39,417 bases of DNA from assembly GCA_020431405.1 (NCBI GenBank), contig JAGQIK010000514.1, positions 1 to 39,417 on the forward strand, written 5' to 3'. Below, in pieces: positions 5,599 through 8,748 of the stretch (the stretch's first letter is position 1; every line of letters starts with the position of its first letter). Below the pieces are notes generated by a model that worked only from the letters and a program-made list of their open reading frames with translations, was not told the origin of the DNA and searched no databases. Source of the DNA: Myxococcales bacterium. GTDB lineage: Bacteria; Myxococcota_A; Polyangia; GCA-2747355. The translations under genes and the position numbers were made by a program.

Positions 5599-7680
5599 AT
5601 GCCGCTGCGCGTGCACCCAGGCGTGATCGGCCGGCGCCTCGACGACTGCTACGTGTTGATCGACGGCGACGGCGAGCAGATCTACGAGCTCGACGCCACC
5701 GGCGCGCGCGTCTGGGAGCTGCTGCTCGAGGGCGTGCCCGTCGCCGGCTTGGCGGCACGGCTGCTCGACGAGTTCGAGGCCGACGCGGCGCGACTGCGCG
5801 CCGACGTCGAAGCGTTGGTGGCCGAGCTGCGTGACGCGCGGCTGCTCGTCGAGGCCGGCAGCGTCGAAGCCGACGCGCCACGGTCGCCGCTGACGCCGAG
5901 CGACGCGCGCGCGCCCAGGCTCGCGCAGGGCGCGTGGCTTCTGCGCTGGTGCGCGGCGAGCGGTGATGCGCCGCAGCTTTCGCGCGGCGACGCCGCCGCC
6001 CTCGACGTGCAGCGCCGCCCCGACGGCAGCTGGCTGGCCCTCGCCGGCGACGTGCACGACGCGCCGCGCGCGGGCTTTCTGGTTCGCCTGCTGGCGCGCG
6101 AGTCGCTGGCGCCCGCCATCGAGGCGCTGCGCGGCGCATTCGTCGTGCTGAGCTTCGAGGCGGGCACCAACACGCTGCGTGTGTGGCGCGACGCGATCGG
6201 CCTTTGGCCTTGCTATGTCGTCTGGTGCGCCGAGCAGAAGACGCTGCTCGTCAGCTCCGATCTCGACGTGCTGCAGGCGCAGCCCGAGCGCGCGCGCGGC
6301 TTCAACGCGGCGCTCGTCGCCGAGTTCGTGCGCGGGCGGGCAAGCGTCGCGCAGTGCCGCGAGACGTTCTACCAGGCCATCGAGCGCCTGCCCGGCGGCC
6401 ATCGGCTGACGCTCGGCCGCGGCGGCGCTGCGCCGCGCGTAGAGCGCACCTGGGATCTCTTCGCCCGCCCACTGCGCTGGGCCGACGACGACGAGATCGC
6501 CACGCTCGAGCCAACCCTCGAGCGCGCGGTGGTGCGCTGCATCGAGTCGGGGGCCGACAGCGTCGCGCTCAGCGGCGGCTACGACTCGGTGACGATAGCG
6601 CTGCTCGCCGCGCGCGCGCGCCAGCGCCGCGCCGCCGTGCCTTTGACGGCGCTGTCGCTGGCGATGGTCGGCACGCCGAGCGACGAGAGCGCCATCCAGC
6701 GCGGCGTGGCCGAGGCGCTCGGCATGCCATTTCGAGTCTTCGAGCTGCCGGCGCTCGAGCGCTGCGACGACTTCTGTCAGCGCGCCCTGGCGCACAGCGC
6801 GCGCTCGCCCGTGCCGATCCTCAGCATGTGGCAGTGGGCCTTCGATGCGCTGCTCGCGGGCGCGACCGACGGGCGCCGCGTGATGATGGGCACCGGCGGC
6901 GACGAGATGTTCATCGTCGACGCGCGCTACGCCGAGGACCTGCTGCGCGCCGGCGACCTGCGGCGCTTGCTGCCCTTCGTGCGCGCCTGGCTGGCCACCT
7001 CGCCGCTGCCCACGCGCCGCGTGCTCGCCGAGCTTTTGTGGCGCGCCGGCGCGCGGCCGCTGCTCGCCGACACGTTGGGGCCGCAGCTGACGAGGCTGCT
7101 GCGGTCGGTGCTCGCCTTCGGCCGCAGCGTGTCGCCCGCGCCGCCGGCGCTCAGCACGCGACCGGTGACCGAGCTGCTCGAGGCGCGCGCGGCTCGCGAA
7201 GCACGCCGCGACGGCAGCGCCTACGTCGCGGCGCTGCGCGAGCTCGTGCACGGCCCGACGCTGATGCTCGAGCTCGACCAGTCCGGCGCGTGGTCGGCGC
7301 GGCACGGCCGCCGCCTGTGTTACCCGTTCTTCGACCGCGACCTCGTCGAGCTGGCGCTGCGCTTGCCTCCCGAGCACCTCTACCGGCGCGGGCAGATGAA
7401 GTCCCCGCTGCGCGAGCTCGTCGCGCGCGAGCTGCCGGCGCTGCCGCCGACGCAGCGCAAAGTCGACTTCACGGCGCTCGGCTGCGAGCTGGTGCGCCGC
7501 ACGGGTGCCGCGGTATGGCAGGCGCTGGGCGGCGCGCCGGCGCTGGCGGCGCTCGGCGTCGTCGAGCGCGAGGAGGCCGAGGCCTGGATGCGTGCCTACT
7601 TCGCGGGCCAGGTCGAGCGGCCCGCGCAGGCCTGGCGGCTGCTCAGCACCGAGCACTGGCTACAACAGCGTACGGACTGA
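5599..7680 (+). CDS. PqqD-like RRE fused to lasso-cyclase-type asparagine synthetase
   Basis: 693 residues. Residues 1-85 form a PqqD-like RiPP recognition element (a GDGEQIYELD strand, then ATGARVWELL and a helical C-half). Residues about 110-260 resemble the class-II amidotransferase part of asparagine synthetases (RDAIGLWPCYV, LLVSSDLD) but there is no N-terminal Cys2 nucleophile, because the PqqD part occupies the N-terminus. Residues 285-680 are the ATP-pyrophosphatase domain, with the PP-loop SGGYDS at 325-330 and TGGDEMF near 433. In lasso-peptide systems the C protein adenylates an Asp/Glu side chain to form a macrolactam, while the RRE (B1) is usually a separate protein or is joined to the protease. 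Here recognition and cyclisation are joined. A precursor and a kinase-like gene follow, supporting RiPP maturation rather than asparagine synthesis. Confidence 0.85.
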   Translation: MPLRVHPGVIGRRLDDCYVLIDGDGEQIYELDATGARVWELLLEGVPVAGLAARLLDEFEADAARLRADVEALVAELRDARLLVEAGSVEADAPRSPLTPSDARAPRLAQGAWLLRWCAASGDAPQLSRGDAAALDVQRRPDGSWLALAGDVHDAPRAGFLVRLLARESLAPAIEALRGAFVVLSFEAGTNTLRVWRDAIGLWPCYVVWCAEQKTLLVSSDLDVLQAQPERARGFNAALVAEFVRGRASVAQCRETFYQAIERLPGGHRLTLGRGGAAPRVERTWDLFARPLRWADDDEIATLEPTLERAVVRCIESGADSVALSGGYDSVTIALLAARARQRRAAVPLTALSLAMVGTPSDESAIQRGVAEALGMPFRVFELPALERCDDFCQRALAHSARSPVPILSMWQWAFDALLAGATDGRRVMMGTGGDEMFIVDARYAEDLLRAGDLRRLLPFVRAWLATSPLPTRRVLAELLWRAGARPLLADTLGPQLTRLLRSVLAFGRSVSPAPPALSTRPVTELLEARAAREARRDGSAYVAALRELVHGPTLMLELDQSGAWSARHGRRLCYPFFDRDLVELALRLPPEHLYRRGQMKSPLRELVARELPALPPTQRKVDFTALGCELVRRTGAAVWQALGGAPALAALGVVEREEAEAWMRAYFAGQVERPAQAWRLLSTEHWLQQRTD

Positions 7681-7704
7681 TCGTATTTTGAGATACACTT
7701 ACTC

Positions 7705-7869
7705 ATGGCCGAAAAGAGCGTCAGGCCCTCGGCCTCGCCCAAGCCACGCTGGACGCGTCCTAAGCTGACGCGCGTCGGCGCCCTGCACGAGGTCGTGCAG
7801 GGTGGCGGCAAAGCGGCCTCCAACCTCGACAGCGACCCCCAGGTCACGTTCAAGAACGGCATGGGCTAG
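7705..7869 (+). CDS. Lasso-type RiPP precursor peptide (candidate)
   Basis: 54 residues, starting 24 bases after the cyclase stop and in the same frame. The leader consensus of lasso precursors, YxxPxLxxxGxxxxxT, is matched at Trp16, Pro19, Leu21, Gly25 and Val31 (Trp for Tyr, Val for Thr). A GGG run (33-35) follows, then Asp42 and Asp44. A core starting at Gly34 or Gly35 puts Asp42 at position 9 or 8, the normal ring size for a lasso macrolactam, leaving a 12-residue tail SDPQVTFKNGMG. The core has no Cys; Ser39, Ser43 and Thr48 are the hydroxyl residues. No clear Shine-Dalgarno precedes the ATG, so it may be translationally coupled to the cyclase. The ring assignment is inference; the leader match is directly visible. 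Confidence 0.7.
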   Translation: MAEKSVRPSASPKPRWTRPKLTRVGALHEVVQGGGKAASNLDSDPQVTFKNGMG

Positions 7870-7905
7870 TCCCTGAAAAAGCTCGGTTTAGCGGGATTCG
7901 AGGGA

Positions 7906-8748
7906 TTGCTGGCTGCGCCGCGTGTGACCCGCGGCGCCGCGAAAATGCTCGCGTCTGGGCCACGCCACGAGACGGGCCATCGCTTCGTCGACGCCGCAGG
8001 TGCGCTTCAGGCCTACAGCGTACGCCTCGACGGCGTGCTCGAGATCTTGCTGCCGGGCCGGCTGCGCTGCCGGCTGCGCGAGGGCGAGCAACACAGCGAG
8101 GTCGACGCCGCTAGCGACGACGCGCTCGATCTGTTCTACCGCTTCGCGCTGCCGCGGCTGATGCACGCGCGCGGGGCCGAGGTGCTGCACGCGTCCGCGG
8201 TGAGGCTCGCCGATGGCTCGCTGCTCGCGTTCTGCGGCGACTCCGGCAGTGGCAAGTCGACGCTCGCCACCGCGGTGTGCCAGCTCGGGCACGCCACGTC
8301 GAGCTGGGCCGACGATGCGTTGGTCTGGACCGAGGACGCGGGCGCGCCCTATTCGCTGCGCCTGCCTTTTCGTCTGCGCCTGCACCGAGAGGCCGCAGCG
8401 CGCCTCGAGCGCCTCGGCGCCCTCGACGACGCCACGCTCGACGACGCCATCGCCACCCACGTGGCAGCGCGCGCCCCGCTGCGCGCCATCGTGTTGCTCG
8501 ACGCCGCCGCGATGCCCGCCGACCGCGCCGACGCCCAGCTCGCGCGCCTCTCGCCGGCTAGCGCCTTCAGCGCGCTGCTCGCGCACGCGATCACCTTCGA
8601 CGCCGGCGACGTCGCACGCCGCAAGGCGATGGCCGCGCGCTACCTCGCCCTCGCCGACCTCGCGCCCACCTACCGGCTCGACGTTCGCCGAGATCTCGAA
8701 CGACTGCCCGAGGTGGTCGACCTGCTCGCGCGCGGCCTCGAAATCTAG
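7906..8748 (+). CDS. HPr-kinase-like P-loop protein of the RiPP locus
   Basis: 280 residues from a TTG at 7906; an ATG at 7945 would shorten it by 13. In-frame codons are open back to the precursor stop at 7867, so the true start is uncertain. After an N-terminal beta region (about 15-85) comes LHASAV and the P-loop GDSGSGKST (111-119), then SSWADDALVW, the order seen in HPr-kinase C-terminal domains and their RiPP-associated relatives. In the paeninodin lasso cluster such a protein phosphorylates the C-terminal Ser of the precursor; this precursor ends in Gly, so another residue would have to be the target. The gene is 36 bases after the precursor and same-strand. A role in core modification is inference. 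An alternative is a carbohydrate-regulatory HprK relative, unlikely in this context. Confidence 0.75.
   Translation: MLAAPRVTRGAAKMLASGPRHETGHRFVDAAGALQAYSVRLDGVLEILLPGRLRCRLREGEQHSEVDAASDDALDLFYRFALPRLMHARGAEVLHASAVRLADGSLLAFCGDSGSGKSTLATAVCQLGHATSSWADDALVWTEDAGAPYSLRLPFRLRLHREAAARLERLGALDDATLDDAIATHVAARAPLRAIVLLDAAAMPADRADAQLARLSPASAFSALLAHAITFDAGDVARRKAMAARYLALADLAPTYRLDVRRDLERLPEVVDLLARGLEI

Follow-up and report, generated by a model that had tools for sequence, protein, structure and literature searches.

In the usual view, the ring-closing amine of a lasso peptide is freed by a B2 protease dedicated to that task. When a lasso-type precursor is found beside a cyclase, a RiPP (ribosomally synthesised and post-translationally modified peptide) recognition element (RRE) and a kinase, and no B2 is encoded nearby, is the leader then kept, or does an enzyme encoded elsewhere act in trans, or a different protease, to remove it? 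The question is raised by a three-gene locus on contig JAGQIK010000514.1 of a Myxococcales bacterium (assembly GCA_020431405.1). The window analysed here, 39,417 nucleotides long, is this one whole contig (C314, 39 kb) of a fragmented 11.2-Mb genome. With reasonable if limited confidence we favour the reading that this is a compact RiPP locus of the lasso type. In it B1, the RRE, would form the N-terminal domain of the cyclase, and the B2 of a second cluster, on contig C519 of the same genome, is the best candidate for leader removal in trans. The features on which this reading is built are the following.

5599..5871, plus strand: RRE domain (PqqD or lasso B1-type), N-terminal part of a 693-amino-acid fusion protein (open reading frame 5599-7680); from Pfam, NCBIfam and PDB matches and model superposition
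5935..7680, plus strand: lasso-cyclase-like (asparagine-synthetase-like) part of the fusion; from Pfam, NCBIfam, fold, catalytic columns and trees
7705..7869, plus strand: precursor peptide, 54 amino acids, MAEKSVRPSASPKPRWTRPKLTRVGALHEVVQ-GGGKAASNLDSDPQVTFKNGMG; from the leader motif, a weak NF033521 match and a position as in related loci
7906..8748, plus strand: ATP-dependent kinase of the HprK/lasso-kinase type, 280 amino acids, TTG start; from hidden Markov model (HMM), alignment, profile and fold

The RRE-cyclase fusion

The 693-residue protein is a lasso B1-type RRE joined to an asparagine-synthetase-like cyclase, the identity of the RRE being given by homology and fold. In Pfam, PqqD (PF05402) covers residues 17-83 (E 1e-15) and Asn_synthase (PF00733) residues 303-689 (E 3e-28), while GATase_7 gives only a partial match below the cut-off and the glutaminase-like part is short. 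The top solved structures for the RRE by sequence are the lasso B1 proteins TfuB1 (6jx3) and TbiB1 (5v1u), and NCBIfam returns lasso_PqqD_Strm with an E of 2e-13, which is below its cut-off. In an AlphaFold model of the fusion (mean predicted local distance difference test, pLDDT, 79.5) the domain superposes on leader-bound TbiB1 with a TMt of 0.83-0.87 and a root-mean-square deviation of 1.3-1.8 A. By sequence and by fold this is a B1 of the lasso type, but one that is fused rather than discrete. The preliminary description of the locus, made from the letters of the DNA, had reported no separate B1; this holds for a discrete gene and fails for the function, since B1 is present as a part fused to C.

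The cyclase part consists of a shortened GATase-like domain without the catalytic Cys, followed by an ATP-PPi synthetase domain. Its best NCBIfam match is macrolact_Ik_Al (E 1e-24, below cut-off), and the folds that its model resembles are the hydroxyamidotransferase TsnB9 as top match, beta-lactam synthetase and asparagine synthetase. The ATP-PPi motifs are kept (SGGYDS at 325-330, DE at 362-363, GGDE at 433-436 and K621). The protein does not have the make-up of a glutamine-dependent asparagine synthetase: the glutaminase Cys is absent and the RRE occupies the N-terminus. Its residue at column 432 is Thr; of 93 asparagine-synthetase-type sequences, 87 show Asp, Glu or Gln at this column, and the cyclases of lasso loci are variable there. 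Its residue at column 623 is Asp, against Gly in 81 of the 93.

Two maximum-likelihood trees, with group labels taken from gene context in both, place the window cyclase on the lasso side. In the larger one (72 rows, a quick tree with long branches noted) 45 asparagine-synthetase-type proteins lie on one side of a branch with a Shimodaira-Hasegawa-like approximate likelihood ratio test (SH-aLRT) value of 100, and the window cyclase groups with 26 cyclases from loci that have B1, B2 or a kinase; the 34-row tree agrees. Firm clustering with true asparagine synthetases, which would have spoken against the preliminary description, did not appear.

Other candidate fusions were examined and rejected. 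Apparent long frames in three genomes (G216, G527 and G528) held no cyclase in HMM scans, plasmid matches were only partial and of asparagine-synthetase type, and in two loci that spanned the whole query (L044 and L097) B1 and C proved to be separate genes. A broad contig scan contained no fused relative among the 80 loci listed.

The precursor, the kinase and the gene set

The precursor carries WxxPxLxxxG at residues 16-25 of its 54 amino acids and is the sole short open reading frame in the window with the motif [YW]xxPxLxxxG, of which 0.05 would be expected in 39 kb under a second-order Markov model. The leader residues named earlier (W16, P19, L21, G25 and V31) and D42 in the core are all where they were said to be. 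The match to the lasso leader NF033521 is weak (E 0.06, below cut-off); the gene sits at the same place as the precursors in related loci.

For the kinase, an E of 5e-102 was obtained with an HMM built from lasso-locus kinases, a circular score because the window kinase is among the seeds. A profile of the kinase group finds HprK among solved structures (E 5e-7), and the model of the window kinase, with a pLDDT of only 66.8, matches PEPCK/HprK folds. In an alignment of 29 lasso-locus kinases it has H95, K117, D136 and D137, the His-Lys-Asp-Asp motif that is essential in lasso kinases (PMC9266682).

All three open reading frames are present on the same strand, as first described, with intergenic gaps of 24 and 36 bases, and the GC content at codon position 3 (0.89-0.93 for the RRE part, the precursor and the kinase) is that of real genes. 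The PF13471 B2 leader peptidase expected of a lasso cluster is missing from the locus. In line with the earlier account of the flanks, Pfam detected neither a B2 nor an ABC exporter among the scanned genes of the window, and no local B2 under another name showed among them. As a separate observation, precursor and kinase lie in one reading frame (7705-8748) with the TAG at 7867-7869 as the sole separator, an arrangement with a chance of 1/3.

A second lasso cluster and related loci

A search for B2 elsewhere in the genome, proposed with the preliminary description, returned a single PF13471 protein, on contig C519, within a complete B1-B2-C-A-K cluster.

5232-8771 of contig C519 (L018, G000:C519): second lasso cluster with B1, B2, cyclase, precursor and kinase

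Its precursor, MKPREK...YRAPRLTLHGTVPATTL-DGSSGPSDAPLGGPQG, has Thr at -2 and Asp8. Both clusters have a lasso precursor, a cyclase and a kinase in the order cyclase-precursor-kinase (C-A-K); unlike the window, the C519 cluster has discrete B1 and B2 genes, Thr at -2 and Asp8. The two cyclases are 24% identical, and the proteins of the two clusters are distantly related. With a B2 in the C519 cluster, help in trans is possible for the window locus. Elsewhere in this genome (L040, G000:C136, 932-7772) HlyD-type proteins, one of them with PqqD and M50 peptidase domains, flank an M16 peptidase, possibly a separate peptide export or processing system.

The order of the window genes recurs in other genomes. 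In profile scans with HMMs built in this analysis for B1, B2, cyclase and kinase, all four were found together in records of Acidobacteriota, Cyanobacteriota, Rubrobacter, Rokubacteria, Sphingomonas and Nitrospira, and the first three of them in one of Chloroflexota. Such loci often have the C-A-K order with a lasso-type precursor; the order, together with lasso leaders and kinases, is seen in Acidobacteriota, Cyanobacteriota, Rubrobacter, Nitrospira and others. The pairing of C enzyme and precursor that had been suggested as a check thus recurs in the same order beside lasso genes in many phyla, and the outcome that would have spoken against the description, homologous loci with the C enzyme but no conserved precursor-like frame at this place, did not arise.

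The loss of B2 is not unique to the window locus. Two further loci, L049 (B1-C-A-methyltransferase-K) and that of G522 (C, K, B1), have no local B2 and a B2 elsewhere in their genomes. Six genomes that belong to one related family (G384, G054, G407, G547, G520 and G521) have cyclase-kinase-B1 loci with an unfused RRE, and no PF13471 match was found anywhere in these six.

L159, L160, L164, L208, L209 and L193: cyclase-kinase-B1 loci; a precursor was found in all of them but L193

A lasso-type precursor with Thr at -2 and an acidic residue 8 is present in G384, G054, G407, G547 and G520. These five A-C-K-B1 loci and the C-K-B1 locus of G521 resemble the window in having RRE, cyclase and kinase without a local B2, and differ from it in gene order, in the unfused RRE, in genomes free of PF13471 and, in the five with a precursor, in Thr at -2 and the acidic residue 8. 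Among the tallied lasso-bearing genomes of the phylum, B2 is absent from 6/6 with the cyclase-kinase-B1 order and from 1/12 of the others (Fisher p 0.0004), a comparison that is descriptive only, the six genomes being closely related and the count a post hoc one.

PrmA/PRMT-like methyltransferases were observed in or near several lasso loci (L159 1167-2093; L164 7349-8518; L049 7401-8501; L042 6883-8046; L097 3139-4302; Pfam was run on L159, L164 and L049 only). In L042, L049 and L097 the methyltransferase lies between precursor and kinase, and the precursors end in Cys-Leu. The C-terminal ends of some of these methyltransferases look PqqD-like by eye. In L038 (G199:C3) a nucleotidyltransferase (PF14907), a discrete PqqD protein and an ABC transporter lie at 6-2769, on the opposite strand near B2-C-A-K genes; the latter two may supply the B1 and the exporter of that cluster.

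Comparison with known systems

In the paeninodin and pseudomycoidin clusters B1 and B2 are separate genes. Like the window, these clusters combine a His-Lys-Asp-Asp kinase with a precursor, an RRE and a cyclase; the known kinases target a C-terminal Ser, which the window core does not have (PMC9266682). A pseudomycoidin paper cited in PMC9266682 and PMC13381572 reports in its title in vivo lasso synthesis without leader and leader peptidase and, as far as that title goes, a missing B2 alone does not exclude a lasso. The bsf cluster of Bradymonas sediminis is similar to the window in its HprK-type kinase, RRE, cyclase, YxxPxL leader and a residue other than Thr at -2 (PMC10368454). However, the B1 of bsf is discrete and is accompanied by a B2, a transporter and a nucleotidyltransferase, and the bsf core has Ser3 and Asp8, whereas in the window B1 is fused to C, B2 and transporter are missing, and the core has Asn8 and no Ser3.

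In RRE-Finder, lasso RREs are listed both as discrete proteins and as fusions to leader peptidases (PMC7470986). Such fusions, McjB for example (PMC7470986, PMC12710340), also join a lasso-type RRE to a maturation enzyme, but there the partner is a peptidase and here it is a cyclase. An RRE-cyclase fusion was not mentioned in the literature searched, which did not cover the 2017 and 2024 lasso surveys.

Weighing the evidence

The lasso-type reading stands on the RRE match, the recurring gene order and the position of the cyclase on the lasso side of the trees; the preliminary description needs correcting on the ring-size register, the B2 located elsewhere and the fused B1. A number of observations count against it. 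When the register is counted from the leader Tyr/Trp, 27 related precursors have Thr (26) or Ile (1) at -2, and 25 of them carry an acidic residue (Asp or Glu) at one of core positions 7 to 9. The same register gives the window precursor Val31 at -2, not Thr, and Asn8, Leu9, Asp10 and Asp12, with no acceptor Asp or Glu at 7-9. Its core, GGGKAASNLDSDPQVTFKNGMG, offers the kinase a target Ser neither at position 3 nor at the C-terminus, other Ser/Thr being present, and the kinase is without a Lys that 86% of the aligned set of 29 share. Two residues of the cyclase are out of the ordinary, Tyr328 of the PPi loop and Gln619 in place of the usual Arg, and the cyclase branch is long. A position as sister to the asparagine synthetases is compatible with an approximately unbiased (AU) test (p 0.376), so that gene context carries much of the argument. 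Searches of 379 genomes from the phylum, 318 from the class and 347 from the phylum to which L049 belongs brought no second RRE-cyclase fusion; as a singleton, it has no conservation to speak in its support. Finally, action of the C519 B2 on the window precursor is a possible, candidate step only. Ile or Val at -2 is a reported rare variant in phosphorylated lasso precursors (PMC10368454). The locus is probably a lasso-type variant with a predicted product, and we file it as such rather than as a proven lasso cluster because a local B2 and Thr at -2 are missing.

The register also decides what becomes of the proposal that Asp42 gives the right ring size. Counted as in the relatives, Asp42 is core position 10; it becomes position 9 if the cut falls after Gly33 and position 8 if it falls after Gly34. 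A standard ring would therefore work only if the cut shifts by one or two residues, for example to a Gly-Gly site with Gly1 and Asp8.

We hold as a tentative second possibility that a lasso-type pathway dispenses with B2 here, the RRE residing in the cyclase and the leader either staying on or being cut off by a different protease at a site that has shifted. If true, ring closure would follow a route not described so far, and the related family whose genomes have C-K-B1 loci without any B2 would be a second case. It appears unlikely that such a B2-independent pathway uses a cut moved to VVQGG/GKAASNLD, made by a C39-type or other protease and leading to a Gly1-Asp8 ring with Ser5. A cut after Gly34 does put Asp42 at 8 and Ser39 at 5, where relatives have Asp8 and often Ser5, a 782-codon open frame on C11 of this genome encodes a C39 peptidase, and the six genomes with C-K-B1 loci are wholly without B2. 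However, C39 peptidases occur widely, 8 of 14 control genomes having one, relatives that possess B2 and Thr at -2 commonly begin their core with Gly-Gly, and the B2-less relatives retain Thr at -2 with no preceding Gly-Gly site.

The locus might instead be a decaying or drifting paralogue of a C519-type cluster that lost B2, exchanged Asp8 for Asn and is losing the kinase Lys, with little or no product. Several otherwise conserved sites deviate across all three genes, the cyclase branch is long and Asn8 is one base from Asp, so decay is also possible, but we judge it improbable: all three frames are open with a strong codon-position signal, the ATP-PPi motifs and the kinase His-Lys-Asp-Asp are intact, and the AlphaFold fold is confident for most of the fusion. 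Even less probable is a product that is no lasso at all, such as a Lys36-Asp42 isopeptide or an amidated Asp on a leader-bound precursor that keeps its leader. The missing local B2, the usual register without acceptor, the RRE tethered to the catalytic domain and Lys36 near Asp42 would fit, and asparagine-synthetase folds do varied amide chemistry, the top fold match being a hydroxyamidotransferase; yet we found no precedent for a cyclase of this family making side-chain crosslinks, and the relatives that share this gene order still have lasso cores of the classic kind. An ordinary asparagine synthetase or exopolysaccharide amidotransferase among chance neighbours, to which the AU test leaves room, is scarcely credible given the fused lasso-type RRE, the absent glutaminase Cys, the adjacent leader-motif precursor and lasso-type kinase, and a cyclase outside the asparagine-synthetase group at SH-aLRT 100.

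A possible pathway and its meaning

For the favoured lasso-type locus with the B2 of C519 acting in trans, the domain identities and folds are computed, and every chemical step that we infer from them is put here conditionally. The RRE, judging from homology and fold, would bind the WxxPxL leader and present the core to the attached synthetase domain without a separate B1. The kinase may phosphorylate Ser/Thr of the leader-bound precursor, as deduced from BsfK and PadeK; in bsf the kinase is B1-assisted (PMC10368454). A protease would free the core, and as the locus has no B2, our best guess is the C519 B2, with another cellular protease as the alternative. The cyclase would adenylate an Asp side chain, most likely that of Asp42, and close the macrolactam on the N-terminal amine of the core. 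The RRE-cyclase fusion would also be a simple one-protein tool for leader binding and macrolactam closure, and it would show how an RRE presents its substrate to a cyclase.

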